From the NCBI RefSeq assembly GCF_001613405.1, contig NZ_BDCH01000010.1, positions 62,001-126,000 on the forward strand: a stretch of DNA of 64,000 bases, read 5' to 3'. Shown here one piece after another: positions 23,365-26,863 of the stretch. This stretch comes from Nocardia crassostreae. Its GTDB lineage: Bacteria > Actinomycetota > Actinomycetes > Mycobacteriales > Mycobacteriaceae. The first letter of the stretch is position 1. Each line of letters starts with the position of its first letter. The translations under genes were made by a program, and so were the position numbers. The notes under the pieces are model-generated. The model searched no databases, was not told the DNA's origin, and saw only the letters and a program-made list of their open reading frames with translations.

Positions 23365-23793
23365 TCAGTTGAGCGTCTTGCGCATCCAGATGTGGGGGAT
23401 GCCCGCGTCGTCGTCGATATCCCCGTAGGCGGTGTAGCCGAGGCGTTCGTAGAAGCCCTGGGCCTGGGTTTGGGAGTGGAGTTCGACCGCGGTCAGGCCG
23501 CGCTGGCGGGCGCGGTCTTCGATGGCTCGGACCAGGGCGACGCCCAGGCCGGTGCCGCGAGTTTGCTTCAGGACGGCCAAACGGCCGAGGACGCCGATGT
23601 TTTCGCGGACGAGCAGGCGACCGGCGCCCACCGGTTCGCCGTCGAAGCGGGCGAGGAAGTGGTCGGCGGTGGCATCGAGTTCGTCGAGTTCCAGTTCCCG
23701 AGGCACGCCTTGTTCGGTGACGAAGACTTCGACGCGGATGGCGTAGGCGTCGGCTAGGTCCTGTTCGGTGGAGACGGTGACAACCTCGATCAT
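23365..23793 (-). CDS. GNAT-family N-acetyltransferase
   Basis: A 142-residue GNAT of the ElaA/YjdJ-like type: AYAIRVEVFVTEQGVPRELELDELD at the front, the acetyl-CoA loop in RLAVLKQTRGTGLGVALVRAIEDRA, then VELHSQTQAQGFYERLGY. It transfers an acetyl group to an unknown amine. ATG 23793 is chosen by family length. In the given sequence the upstream cupin frame runs into this gene without a stop, which I attribute to a frameshift; in the corrected frame the cupin stops 14 bases before this start. Last gene of the same-strand run that begins at 26863. Confidence 0.85.
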   Translation of the reverse strand: MIEVVTVSTEQDLADAYAIRVEVFVTEQGVPRELELDELDATADHFLARFDGEPVGAGRLLVRENIGVLGRLAVLKQTRGTGLGVALVRAIEDRARQRGLTAVELHSQTQAQGFYERLGYTAYGDIDDDAGIPHIWMRKTLN

Positions 23794-23807
23794 GAGGTCA
23801 GCATGCC

Positions 23808-24213
23808 TCAGGGCTCGGCGGCGCAGGGTGGTGGGGGAACGTTGCGGGAGAGGGGGCTGCCGGGGGGGGGGATTGATGTAGAGGACGGTCAGGCGCAAGG
23901 GGTTCGGGCCGCTGTTGCGGGCCAGGTGCGCATTGGCGCGGCCGCTGGGTTCGCGGAAGACGCGCCATGGGCGTTTGGTGACGGGGGCGCAGTCCAGGCC
24001 CGGGTGATCGAGGGCGCTGCCGGTGACCAGCACCAGCAGCGTTCCGTCGTGAAAGTGCCAGCCCGTGCGGCCGCCCGGGGCGATTAGGGTCTGCCGCAGG
24101 ACGACTTCGCGGCCGAGAAGGGTGAAGCGGGCCAGTTCGCGGCTGGCCGTACCGATCGCCGGGGGCGGATTCGGGCGGAAGCCGTTACGCGGATCGCGGT
24201 GGAAGAGCGCCAT
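23808..24213 (-). pseudogene. Cupin-domain protein, frameshifted at a C10/G10 tract
   Basis: The frame from ATG 24213 (SD GAGG nine bases upstream) encodes a small cupin: REVVLRQTLIAPGGRTGWHFHDG, LVLVTGSALDHPG and NPLRLTVLYINPP. The metal-binding pattern is HFHDG. At the ten-G run 23862-23871 the frame passes into the arginine-rich series PRQPPLPQRSP and fuses to the GNAT. With nine bases instead, it would read PPPGSPLSRNV and stop at 23808-23810, giving 134 residues and normal spacing to the next gene. So one inserted base is likely, either real (possible phase variation) or a sequencing error. Role unknown. Confidence 0.65.
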
Positions 24214-24263
24214 ATTCGGCATCCTCGCGCACGGGCGTCGGCGCGTAGCGGCCGGAGGCGAGC

Positions 24264-24560
24264 TCAGTGCTCGTCGTAGTGCCCGTCGTGGGCGGCGTAG
24301 CGGTGGCCGTCGTGGATGTAGTCGACGTGGTCGCCGTGCGGGACGGCGACGTGGCCGCAGCCTTCGCCGTGCTTGTGGTCGTGGCTGTCGTGGGCCACGT
24401 GAACGGTGGGTTCGCATTTGTCGAAGTGGCCGTCGTGGGCCTTGTGCAGGTGGCCGTCGTGGACGTAGTCGACATGGTCGCCGTGTGGGACGGCAACGTG
24501 GCCGCAATCGGCACCGTGCACATGGTCGTGATCGGTGTGAGCGGCATGAGCGGTGGTCAT
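24264..24560 (-). CDS. His-rich metal-binding protein with internal repeat
   Basis: A 98-residue protein with 26 histidines, many aspartates and three cysteines. Two copies of the unit CGHVAVPHGDHVDY followed by HDGH and AHDGH lie 49 residues apart. There is no signal peptide or membrane segment. The composition predicts binding of zinc, nickel or copper and a storage or buffering role; related small proteins occur widely in actinobacteria. ATG 24560 has AAGGAAG upstream. It lies 58 bases after the DUF692 partner gene on the same strand, which is suggestive because many MNIO clusters concern metal handling. Confidence 0.8.
   Translation of the reverse strand: MTTAHAAHTDHDHVHGADCGHVAVPHGDHVDYVHDGHLHKAHDGHFDKCEPTVHVAHDSHDHKHGEGCGHVAVPHGDHVDYIHDGHRYAAHDGHYDEH
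24302..24506. repeat. Direct repeat inside the His-rich gene
   Basis: Two near-identical units of about 58 bases (24302-24359 and 24449-24506), offset 147 bases, which is 49 codons. They encode the duplicated CGHVAVPHGDHVDY module and probably arose by internal duplication. Confidence 0.8.
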
Positions 24561-24618
24561 GGAGCTTCCTTTCCGGGATGGGCAGGACTGTCCAGCTAAC
24601 TCATGCCGACATTAGCAC

Positions 24619-24969
24619 TCACGCATCGGTGCGGCGGATGCGTGCGCGCAGCGCGGTCCACCTGCTTTCGGACGGCCGCGGATCGGGCAGGTCGTGCTGC
24701 GCGGCGAAGGCGGCGGCGTCGGCGGGGGTGCTCAACTTCGGGCGGGCACGCGCCCAGGCGACGAACAGCGCGGTGAACTCGCCGCCGCAGCGGTGGGCGA
24801 GCAAGGGGTAGCGGCGCGCCACCTCCTCGGCCCGCTTGTGCAGGAGCGCGTGGGCCGCCGCGGAGAGGTCGGCGTGGTCGAAACCGGGCGGCGGTTCGGC
24901 TCCGGCGACTAGGGCGCGCACCAGCTCTTCCTGTTGCTGGGCGAGGGATTTCGCGGCGGACTCGGTCAC
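24619..24969 (-). CDS. Small partner protein of the DUF692 enzyme (SCO6045 C-terminal-like)
   Basis: A 116-residue cytoplasmic helical protein. Its GTG start overlaps the stop of the DUF692 gene by four bases (GTGA). Visible features are QQQEELVRALVAG, HALLHKRAEEVARRYPLL, then FTALFVAWARARP. It resembles the domain fused to the C-terminus of DUF692 proteins such as Streptomyces SCO6045. In other MNIO systems (MbnBC, TglHI) a small second protein holds the peptide substrate for the enzyme; that role is inferred here from position and tight coupling. Confidence 0.7.
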   Translation of the reverse strand: MTESAAKSLAQQQEELVRALVAGAEPPPGFDHADLSAAAHALLHKRAEEVARRYPLLAHRCGGEFTALFVAWARARPKLSTPADAAAFAAQHDLPDPRPSESRWTALRARIRRTDA

Positions 24970-25955
24970 GGCGACAGTACTCCGGCGCGCAGGGTGATCG
25001 ACGGGCGGTTGGATTCGCCCGCAATGGCGTTCAATTCGGCGAGCAGCTCGGTGGCGAGGGGATAGTTCCCGTCCCGCTCCAGCATGAGCGGCACCGCATG
25101 GTCGGCGGTGAACTCGCGGACCAGCGCGAGCACCTCCGGCGGGACCGGATGGACGTGGGTGTCGTGGTAGCGGCCGCCCGCTTCCTGCCCGCCCGCCACA
25201 TGGCAGTAGGCGATGCGCTCGGCGGGCAGTCGCCGCAATTCGGTGAGCGGATCACGAGATCTGTTGCGGGCATTGGCATAAACGTTGGCGATATCGATGA
25301 GCAGATACACACCCGTCCGCTCCACCAGCTCTTGTAGGAACTCCGCGTCGGTGAACTCGGCATCGGGCCACTCGAACAGCGCCGCGATGTTCTCCACCGC
25401 CAGCGGAACCTCGAGGTCCCGCTGGGTGCGAGAGATATTGCGGGCCAAGGCGTCGAGCGCCTGCCGGGTACGCGGCACCGGCAGCAGATGCCCCGCCTCC
25501 AGCCCGCCCGCCCGCACGAATGCGATGTGCTCGCTCACCAGCGGCGCATCCAGCGCCCGCGCACACTCGGCCAGGTGCGCGACCCGCTCGTCGGCCACCG
25601 GCTCCGCGCCGCCGAGAGACAGCGAAATACCGTGCGGTACAACACGTATACCCCGCTCGATCAGAGCCGAAAGTTCCTCCGGAACCAGCACGTCACGGTT
25701 GGGCGGCGAGTCGACTGCCCGTCGACCGCTGTTTCCGATCAGGCGTCCGACCCCGGCGCGCCGTCTCTTACGCGGTGCCGCCACGGCCAGCGATTCCGCG
25801 ATCACCTCGCAGAACCCGATCCCCTCCAGCGCCGCGATGATCCCGCAGATCTCCCGCCGCCACCCCACACCCAAGGCCGAATCCGGCAGCGGCCCGGCAT
25901 CATTCGCCGGTCTCGACCGTGCTGCCGGATCCGGTCCGGAAACCGGCCCGGTCAT
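24966..25955 (-). CDS. DUF692 / MNIO-type metalloenzyme
   Basis: A 329-residue TIM-barrel protein of the DUF692 family, multinuclear non-haem-iron oxidases that modify Cys or other residues in peptides (MbnB, TglH). Likely metal ligands are all visible: Glu54, His108 in VVPHGISLSLGG, His143 in VSEHIAF, Glu188 in AVENIA, Asp221/Asn224 in LLIDIANVYANA, His252 in CHVAGG, Asp265/His267/His269 in HDTHVHPV and Glu293 in MLERDGNYP. ATG 25955 overlaps the stop of the upstream membrane-protein gene (ATGA). Residues about 58-89 are a basic insertion (PRKRRRAGVGRLIGN) that splits the usual distance between the first Glu and His108. Substrate is inferred to be the Cys/Gly tail of the neighbouring protein. 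Confidence 0.88.
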   Translation of the reverse strand: MTGPVSGPDPAARSRPANDAGPLPDSALGVGWRREICGIIAALEGIGFCEVIAESLAVAAPRKRRRAGVGRLIGNSGRRAVDSPPNRDVLVPEELSALIERGIRVVPHGISLSLGGAEPVADERVAHLAECARALDAPLVSEHIAFVRAGGLEAGHLLPVPRTRQALDALARNISRTQRDLEVPLAVENIAALFEWPDAEFTDAEFLQELVERTGVYLLIDIANVYANARNRSRDPLTELRRLPAERIAYCHVAGGQEAGGRYHDTHVHPVPPEVLALVREFTADHAVPLMLERDGNYPLATELLAELNAIAGESNRPSITLRAGVLSP

Positions 25956-26863
25956 CCGCCGCACCCGCCGCCGCACCCGCCGCCGCAGCTGCCGCCGCCT
26001 CCGCCGTCGCTGCCGCCGGTGGAGCAGCTGCTGCCGCCCGAGCCGCCGTCACTGGTGGCCACGGTATTGGTGGCGTCGGCGAGTTCGGGATCGACCGCCC
26101 ACAGCACCTGTGCGCCGAAGAGCGCGACGGCCAGGGGCACGGTGCCGGGGCCGTAGGCGCCGTAGGCGGGGGAGTTGCGGGGTTCGAGGTAGCCGTAGCG
26201 CTGGCGGGATTCCTCGAGGGTGGCGCGGCCGCGCGGTGTCAGGCGCGGTGAATAGGTCACCAGGCGCAAACAGATGAGCAGCGCGAACATGGCGAGGATC
26301 AGCCAGATGATCGGCTGGTTGTTCTCCAGGCCCGCATAGACCCGCAGGCCGCCGAGCAGCAGTGCGACCACCGGAATCGCCGCGAGGTACAGGGCTTTTC
26401 GCTCTTGCCGTCCGAACAGGTAGCCGCGCTCGCTCAGTACGATCCGCAGCGCGTCCACCGGACCTTTCACGGCCGTGGACAGGGCGGGCACCTTCCGGTC
26501 GTCGGAGGTGTAGAGCCGCTCGTACAGCTGCCGGGAGAGCTGGTCCAGTGCTCGTTCGTCCACGGCGCGCGGTCCGATCGGACCGCCGGAGGGGCCGATG
26601 AGCCGATGCTCGCGCAGTTGTGCGAGACCGACCAGGACCGGACGGCGGTCGTCGACCAGCATGGCCGTCTCGACCGGATACAGCGGATGGTCCGGCCGAT
26701 CCGGGCCGCCGCTCTCGCGAATGATCCTGGCGCGCTGGAGCAGTCCGTAGGTGACCGCGGCGACCCCGGTCAGGATGTAGGCCCAGAGGAACGCTTCGCT
26801 CGGAATTCCCCAGGTGTCGGCGGCAAGGAGTGCGGCCGCGGCCGGGGAGGTCCAGGTGACCAT
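25952..26863 (-). CDS. TIGR04222-type membrane protein with C-terminal Cys/Gly tail
   Basis: A 303-residue protein with a membrane segment near the N-terminus (AYILTGVAAVTYGLL), a soluble middle (LDQLSRQLYERL, LTPRGRATLEE), a pair of central membrane segments (ALYLAAIPVVALLLGG, IIWLILAMFALLICL) and a further one (TVPLAVALFGAQVLW). The last 35 residues are Gly/Ser with Cys280, Cys293, Cys297 and Cys301, ending SCGGGCGGGCGG. This matches the TIGR04222 family, whose members sit beside DUF692 genes. First gene of a run coupled by 4-bp overlaps to the enzyme and its partner. I infer that the tail is the substrate that the enzyme modifies. Confidence 0.85.
   Translation of the reverse strand: MVTWTSPAAAALLAADTWGIPSEAFLWAYILTGVAAVTYGLLQRARIIRESGGPDRPDHPLYPVETAMLVDDRRPVLVGLAQLREHRLIGPSGGPIGPRAVDERALDQLSRQLYERLYTSDDRKVPALSTAVKGPVDALRIVLSERGYLFGRQERKALYLAAIPVVALLLGGLRVYAGLENNQPIIWLILAMFALLICLRLVTYSPRLTPRGRATLEESRQRYGYLEPRNSPAYGAYGPGTVPLAVALFGAQVLWAVDPELADATNTVATSDGGSGGSSCSTGGSDGGGGGSCGGGCGGGCGG

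Follow-up and report, generated by a model that had tools for sequence, protein, structure and literature searches.

A TIGR04222-MNIO operon of Nocardia crassostreae with a cysteine-bearing membrane-protein tail as putative enzyme substrate

Clusters in which a TIGR04222 membrane protein is paired with an MNIO (DUF692) enzyme, and the proposal that the tail of the former is the substrate of the latter, are already published, as seen in the parts of Antoine 2025 (PMC12452194) compared here. The same parts place the tail in the periplasm, remark that a partner gene seems to be missing from many TIGR04222/MNIO clusters, and describe 5-thiooxazole as mediating copper chelation in a bufferin. TIGR04222 is named in a Pseudonocardia genome paper too. 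Among related enzymes, a mixed-valent diiron state has been described for HvfB (PMC13419390, in part), and loop L1 of TglH docks its partner (PMC10880893, in part). Our literature searches on DUF692 in actinobacteria and on ligand numbers found no useful paper. Here we analyze a TIGR04222-MNIO locus in a 64,000-nucleotide stretch of Nocardia crassostreae (contig NZ_BDCH01000010.1, positions 62,001 to 126,000; hereafter the window, in whose numbering coordinates of this locus are given). The original prediction for this locus, made from the letters of the window, had rightly called the family pairing known and had proposed the cysteine-containing tail of the membrane protein as the modified substrate.

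Operon, iron enzyme and partner

The locus is a minus-strand trio spanning 24619-26863, in which the TIGR04222 gene (25952-26863), the MNIO gene (24966-25955) and the partner gene (24619-24969) follow in this order with successive 4-bp overlaps, the MNIO start lying on the TIGR04222 stop (ATGA) and the GTG start of the partner on the MNIO stop (GTGA). The 303-aa membrane protein scores 97.8 bits with NCBIfam TIGR04222 (near_uncomplex; cut-off 43), and this score, the 4-bp overlap with the MNIO gene and the C-terminal Ser/Gly/Cys tail place it in the TIGR04222-MNIO class. The analysis thereby bore out several features read in the original prediction: the coupling of three genes by 4-bp overlaps, the TIGR04222 type of the protein with tail cysteines at 280, 293, 297 and 301, the small third gene as partner, the presence of all metal ligands in the DUF692 enzyme (nine of the nine positions mapped from TglH) and the tethering to the membrane. 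We consider it reasonably probable, on the evidence of the sequences, that the trio makes one membrane-tethered modified-cysteine protein with the tail as the MNIO substrate, and modification of the tail appears likely. Conserved operon order, an intact iron site, a near-invariant last cysteine and an adjacent or fused partner uphold this part of the prediction; loci of one other genus, presented below, count against it.

The enzyme (329 aa) matches Pfam PF05114 (MbnB_TglH_ChrH) with 250.6 bits (cut-off 25) and is the only such match in the whole genome of 57 contigs. The iron ligands of TglH are H71, H107, E151, D184, H216 and E258, with N187, D229 and H231 also binding the third iron (PMC10880893, in part); they align to H108, H143, E188, D221, H252 and E293, and to N224, D265 and H267, respectively, of the Nocardia crassostreae enzyme, the H71-H108 pairing being based on the HG-SLSLG motif shared in the alignment with 3bww. 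All nine are kept in 117 of 120 distinct MNIO sequences of at least 150 aa from loci L001-L228, and the remaining three are truncated. A lost ligand, suspected from the N-terminal EVIAES in place of EVHxEN, was dropped, as that position is absent from the TglH ligand list. The nearest NCBIfam models both stay under their cut-offs, BufB with 169.4 bits (cut-off 310) and HvfB with 148.3 bits (cut-off 360). One Nocardia subclade, including the present enzyme, carries a lineage-specific insertion of about 30 residues ahead of H108 (approximately residues 58-88; 25692-25784, minus strand), which would sit roughly at the position of loop L1 of TglH. In another locus (L010 2268-3241, genome G071) the MNIO is found in two frames, probably through a frameshift.

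The small partner (116 aa) is all-helical in its model (pLDDT, a predicted confidence measure, 88.7). It has no Pfam or NCBIfam family match, none of 15 homologues matched DUF2063 at E <= 1, and the best hits of its profile among PDB sequences were antibody chains (E 0.46). Out of 12 chains compared, its best structural match was 8hci_A, the non-MNIO chain of the TglHI complex, a weak match (Z 4.2, next 2.4; root mean square deviation 5.0 over 110 aligned residues) that Foldseek likewise scored weakly (E 4.3); the modeled fold is weakly in line with PME-type 2, a partner type with a TglI/NGO1945-like fold that lacks the DUF2063 signature. A census with a profile of the 15 homologues revealed the partner in 112 of 116 survey MNIO loci (87 separate and 25 in one open reading frame (ORF) with the MNIO; some loci belong to the same genome), and in the four misses the locus sequence stops within or just past the MNIO. 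All 80 named loci have it as well, as a separate gene in 79 and in a single ORF with the MNIO in one. Among 41 wide loci it is present in 38, where 21 copies are separate and 17 share an ORF with the MNIO. The partner accompanies the enzyme in every complete locus of this clade. A stop-free MNIO-partner ORF is no proof of a fusion protein, yet it recurs across many genomes. For this clade, a partner that is constant or joined qualifies the published remark on missing partners.

The cysteine tail and its association with the enzyme

Besides Cys198 in the third hydrophobic segment, the cysteines of the TIGR04222 protein (280, 293, 297 and 301) all lie in its tail, residues 272-303 (25955-26050, minus strand), and the C-terminal end reads SCGGGCGGGCGG. 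The tail is predicted to be disordered: the AlphaFold2 model has a mean pLDDT of 81.1, with values below 50 at residues 273-298 and 300-303. Comparison across the genus revealed the terminal -CGG (residues 301-303; 25955-25963) as its most constant part. The exact ending is found in 62 of 63 enzyme-adjacent Nocardia copies, the exception being a fused frame, so that the last cysteine stands at position -3; in genome G105 this -CGG holds the sole tail cysteine. Gene overlap is no explanation for the ending, because copies free of any overlap with an MNIO start (among them G246, G256, G343 and G394:C169) end in the same way. Outside Nocardia, the last cysteine of 31 adjacent Cys-repeat tails lies 2-10 residues from the end, and 3-6 residues in 28 of them. 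Neighboring tail cysteines are 3 to 7 residues apart in 256 of 315 pairs, and the number and spacing of the non-terminal ones vary freely.

Gly-rich, low-complexity coding of this kind, with freely varying lengths and spacings, could also arise as a by-product of GC-rich codon slippage with a neutral cysteine content, and Ser and Asp, whose codons are one step away from those of Gly, are indeed common, making up 20.4% and 4.9% of the final 30 residues in 93 adjacent tails. Arg (0.1%), Val (0.1%) and Ala (1.1%), which are as near to Gly codons, are nevertheless scarce, whereas Cys reaches 12.6%; its share is 9.2% in 21 Gly/Ser tails from genomes with the MNIO elsewhere and merely 3.3% in eight from MNIO-less genomes. 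Neutral drift from Gly codons is thus disfavored by the composition, even with Ser and Asp frequent as well, and with the fixed -3 cysteine, whose -CGG persists on copies that no MNIO start follows, slippage appears very improbable.

A search of the Nocardia crassostreae genome for other -GCGG stop endings gave 15 pattern matches versus 20 in the control, with a convincing Gly-rich tail only in TIGR04222. Locus L333 was considered as a further Gly-rich -GCGG tail and was rejected, since it is Gly-rich for about 20 residues and has a stop 31 residues ahead. The same genome holds a second TIGR04222 copy on contig 43 (L002 1221-2225, G000:C43), with the tail CGGGGCGGGG and no MNIO alongside; this copy may be a substrate in trans for the only MNIO of the genome. 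Foldseek returned nothing under E 1 for the TIGR04222 model among solved folds. Structural matches to a designed helix bundle (Z 9.0) and to the zinc transporter YiiP (5vrf_A; Z 8.4, 84 aligned residues, root mean square deviation 2.5) are ordinary for helical models and were not used. With the DUF2207 C-terminal domain (PF20990) the protein scores 18 bits, below the cut-off of 33. Frames of about 545 aa in many Nocardia genomes match TIGR04222 weakly and are taken for putative DUF2207 proteins; they were useless as a control for Gly tails, as the 20 fetched had neither a Gly/Ser tail nor a cysteine in the last 60 residues.

Among 148 Nocardia genomes, with 17 TIGR04222 candidates scored per genome and an undercount therefore possible, TIGR04222 exceeded its cut-off in 64 and MNIO in 66; each of the 64 TIGR04222 genomes has an MNIO, and 64 of the 66 MNIO genomes have a TIGR04222. 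The enzyme-led sample, the best 80 of 163 confirmed relatives, covers Nocardia, Rhodococcus, Rhodococcoides, Smaragdicoccus, Antrihabitans, Actinomadura, Gordonia, Thermomonospora and one Nocardiaceae metagenome-assembled genome. Here the co-occurrence of TIGR04222 Cys tails with DUF692 goes beyond chance: in 72 of the 80 loci there is, upstream of the enzyme, a TIGR04222 whose final 60 residues contain one or more C[GSA][GSA] units. The other eight comprise one TIGR04222-MNIO single ORF (L251, N. carnea), three loci cut by a contig end (L295, L304, L312) and four without TIGR04222. When the three cut loci are set aside, 73 of 77 informative loci have a Cys-tailed TIGR04222 ahead of the enzyme, one of them in frame. 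In L062 (975-2768) and in L251 of N. carnea (1075-2868) the TIGR04222 tail and the MNIO are read through without a stop between them, by fusion or a lost stop.

Classification of 166 of 169 TIGR04222-profile frames (three with an open 3' end were dropped) was based on adjacency, defined as at most 500 bp from the MNIO, and on a Cys-repeat tail, defined as two or more C[GSA][GSA] units among the final 60 residues. Of the 75 Nocardia frames, 60 adjacent copies had the repeat and three did not, and with the MNIO elsewhere nine had it and three did not. Most of those nine lie in tandem within 2 kb or beside a contig break. The three adjacent exceptions are G105 (single -CGG), G014 (fused frame) and G079, which likewise has a single terminal -CGG, although an assembly gap interrupts its tail and the sequence before the gap is perhaps out of frame. 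The 91 frames from the class outside Nocardia divided into 31 adjacent copies with and two without the repeat, eight with and 29 without where the MNIO is elsewhere, and two with and 19 without in MNIO-less genomes. The two adjacent exceptions are G326 and G273, and a second copy in the G273 locus has a Cys tail. Adjacent copies differ from those of MNIO-less genomes with a Fisher p-value of 2e-10, descent ignored.

These counts bear on a further explanation, in which plain tail cysteines bind metal or form disulfides while the enzyme acts elsewhere on the TIGR04222 protein. Cysteines spaced 3-7 residues apart would bind metal unmodified, and the prevailing spacing agrees with such a role. Against it, MNIO-less genomes lack Cys-repeat tails but for two doubtful copies of 21, G225 lying at a contig edge and G328 having a wrong-frame tail, and G105 has a single tail cysteine; we regard plain cysteines as quite unlikely.

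Several observations weigh against the tail as substrate. First, the coupling is not significant once corrected for descent. In a quick tree of 109 of the 166 frames, with roughly every fourth adjacent Nocardia copy retained and short domains and G328 excluded, there were six supported independent pairs, of which on average 1.4 went the same way and 0.2 the opposite way (median p-value 1); when the trait was an MNIO in any part of the genome, four supported pairs gave 0.4 and 0.1. The coupling is so a pattern of co-inheritance and not replicated proof. Second, the enzyme is kept where tail cysteines are absent, a situation regarded in the original prediction as refuting and found not in Nocardia but in a genus labeled g23. 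Out of 25 g23 MNIO genomes, nine have a Cys-tailed TIGR04222 next to the enzyme, in 12 every TIGR04222 copy lacks a Cys repeat, and four (G165, G257, G422, G430) have none over the cut-off, the MNIO match of G430 being weak (51 bits) and not rescored. In the 12, the MNIO and partner form one ORF with intact iron ligands in every case, and TIGR04222 lies 0.6-2.1 kb from the MNIO in 11 and on another contig in G353. A second TIGR04222 elsewhere with one tail cysteine occurs in four of the 12, and rescoring nearly all their candidates yielded one weak extra match (G406, 25 bits; tail not inspected). Third, four loci of the R. erythropolis group (L298, L303, L308, L309) comprise MNIO and partner without TIGR04222, the MNIO of G326 adjoins a tail without any cysteine, and L205-L207 have no partner, their MNIOs being more distant (160-203 bits versus at least 377 for the rest).

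In a rival explanation, the MNIO would modify another, unlinked substrate and TIGR04222 would serve as a membrane scaffold or delivery partner whose tail cysteines stay thiols. MNIO and partner persist without a Cys-repeat tail in g23 and without a TIGR04222 over the cut-off in g23 and in Rhodococcus, and all 12 tail-Cys-less g23 copies retain a Cys pair near transmembrane segment 1 (TM1), which speaks in favor of this explanation. The exact -CGG ending in Nocardia, on the other hand, fits direct recognition, and the search beside the enzyme in g23 loci without Cys tails revealed, among the frames listed, no convincing hidden Cys precursor or other Cys-tailed alternative: the few frames flagged are apparently non-coding, and the one Gly-rich frame, in L203, lies on the opposite strand. 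An unlinked substrate in place of the tail is, on balance, unlikely, and a g23 enzyme kept without a Cys tail suggests at least one further substrate in this clade.

Some features of these loci are recorded here in their own right. In L192, one of the related g23 loci L189-L200 and the one locus checked for a PTH2-like gene ending at the enzyme, such a gene is followed by the MNIO-partner single ORF and then by a TIGR04222 without tail cysteines and with the TM1 Cys pair; PTH genes are reported for cluster II in the compared parts of Antoine 2025 (PMC12452194). A conserved small CxxC-pair protein ending in TACSG lies about 3 kb upstream of the MNIO in L193 and L199 (g23). In L298, L303, L308 and L309 a frame that by eye is Lrp/AsnC-type-like ends at the MNIO start.

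Membrane side, proposed chemistry and neighboring genes

In the Cys-tailed copies, Lys plus Arg per 10 residues amounts to 0 before TM1 (83 rows), about 1.9 after TM1, 0.3-0.6 between TM2 and TM3 and 2.5-2.6 after TM3; copies of the class without a Cys tail show 1.4 after TM1, 0.5 between TM2 and TM3 and 1.8 after TM3. By this charge pattern the N-terminus is predicted outside and the region past TM3 inside, and the tail would be outside only if the fourth span, the last hydrophobic helix (residues 241-257; 26093-26143, minus strand), crosses the membrane. In the Nocardia crassostreae protein the 19-residue hydropathy of this span is 1.53, compared with 1.71, 2.05 and 2.62 for TM1, TM2 and TM3. 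It is free of charge in 62 of 63 adjacent Nocardia copies (mean hydropathy 1.64) and charged in 24 of the 28 adjacent Cys-tailed non-Nocardia copies, out of 31, that could be anchored (mean 0.72; at least two charges in 17). Tails outside Nocardia are therefore probably cytosolic, on the side of the enzyme, and the tail of the present protein could lie on either side, its span being borderline. An extracellular tail would count against its role as substrate, for a cytosolic iron enzyme would then be forced to act before translocation.

The scheme that we infer, in its substrate, chemistry, order of modification and role of metal alike, would run as follows. The TIGR04222 domain would anchor the protein in the membrane, and MNIO and small partner would act as one enzyme binding the flexible tail. 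A tail cysteine thiolate would ligate the iron pair of the enzyme and be oxidized with O2, and our best guess for the product, by analogy, is a 5-thiooxazole, given that the maturases BufB and HvfB represent the named families closest to this enzyme. The cysteine at -3 from the C-terminus would be the key site and further [GS]-C-[GS]-[GS] units variable extra sites, and the end product may be a soft-metal-binding or redox-active tail at the membrane. More tentatively, the MNIO-partner enzyme might recognize the protein C-terminus with -CGG as entry site and act on the cytosolic end of a membrane protein rather than on an exported RiPP (ribosomally synthesized and post-translationally modified peptide), with Cys units freely gained and lost, making an array of modified cysteines that is bound to the membrane and tunable through the gene. 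Modification of the tail, if real, would mean that full-size membrane proteins are processed as well by an enzyme family known for small secreted peptides, and that the modification stays in the membrane. With the ending fixed, exchange of one residue (C301S) would be a precise test, and the tail of G105, with its naturally single cysteine, could serve as the minimal substrate in mass spectrometry.

Downstream on the same strand, 58 bp past the trio, lies the gene of a 98-aa protein with 26 histidines (24264-24560), without a Pfam or NCBIfam match. A metal-sensing or buffering device with this His-rich protein as a component, as had been envisaged, would fit its position and its presence near the trio in nine of 21 wide loci and, by coordinates, within 2 kb of the MNIO in nine genomes. 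The gene is, however, found in 132 of 148 Nocardia genomes irrespective of the enzyme, in 61 of 66 with and 71 of 82 without MNIO, and it was rejected as a component. Frame clustering over the 80 named loci (flanks up to 4 kb, clusters by frame and unannotated) gave one cluster, the trio, in all 80 loci and all 10 genus labels, and no neighbor besides it common to more than four labels; we hold such a device to be highly unlikely. Beyond the His-rich gene, whose reading stood, a single stop-free minus-strand ORF (23365-24507) holds a GNAT domain, which Pfam supports as predicted, and a stretch that is cupin-like by eye, for which Pfam gave no match at E <= 0.1. A run of 10 G at 23862-23871, near the end of that stretch, is a possible slippage or error site.

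Comparison with known systems

Compared with the TIGR04222-MNIO clusters in the parts of Antoine 2025 (PMC12452194) at hand, the locus is alike in the order of TIGR04222 followed by MNIO, the Ser/Gly/Cys tail, several transmembrane segments, a partner that may likewise be of PME-type 2, and the occurrence mostly in Actinomycetota. The -CGG rule, the constancy of the partner, the single-ORF joins, the doubt about topology and the dissociation in g23 go beyond those parts: 'CGG' has no occurrence in the main text, where the rule was not encountered, nor were MNIO-partner single ORFs encountered in the parts compared, and the periplasmic tail and the frequent absence of a partner are both questioned here for this clade. 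The likeness to the DUF2207 C-terminal domain (PF20990) is weak, and the fetched frames of about 545 aa have no Gly/Ser tail, unlike the TIGR04222 copies.

The bufferins and HvfABC oxazolins resemble the locus in having the nearest named MNIO models and cysteine substrates plus a partner. They differ in that the BufB equivalog cut-off (169.4 versus 310 bits) and that of HvfB are not reached here, in the lack of a DUF2063 partner, and in the substrate, which is multi-transmembrane here and a secreted peptide there. From the TglHI system of 3-thiaglutamate formation, as described in part of PMC10880893, the locus differs in that Asn73 of TglH, needed there, corresponds by position to Ile110, and in that the partner has 116 aa against 268 aa for the TglHI chain in 8hci_A. 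The two are alike in their iron ligands, in the C-terminal cysteine modified in TglHI and in the partner, whose best match is the non-MNIO chain of TglHI.

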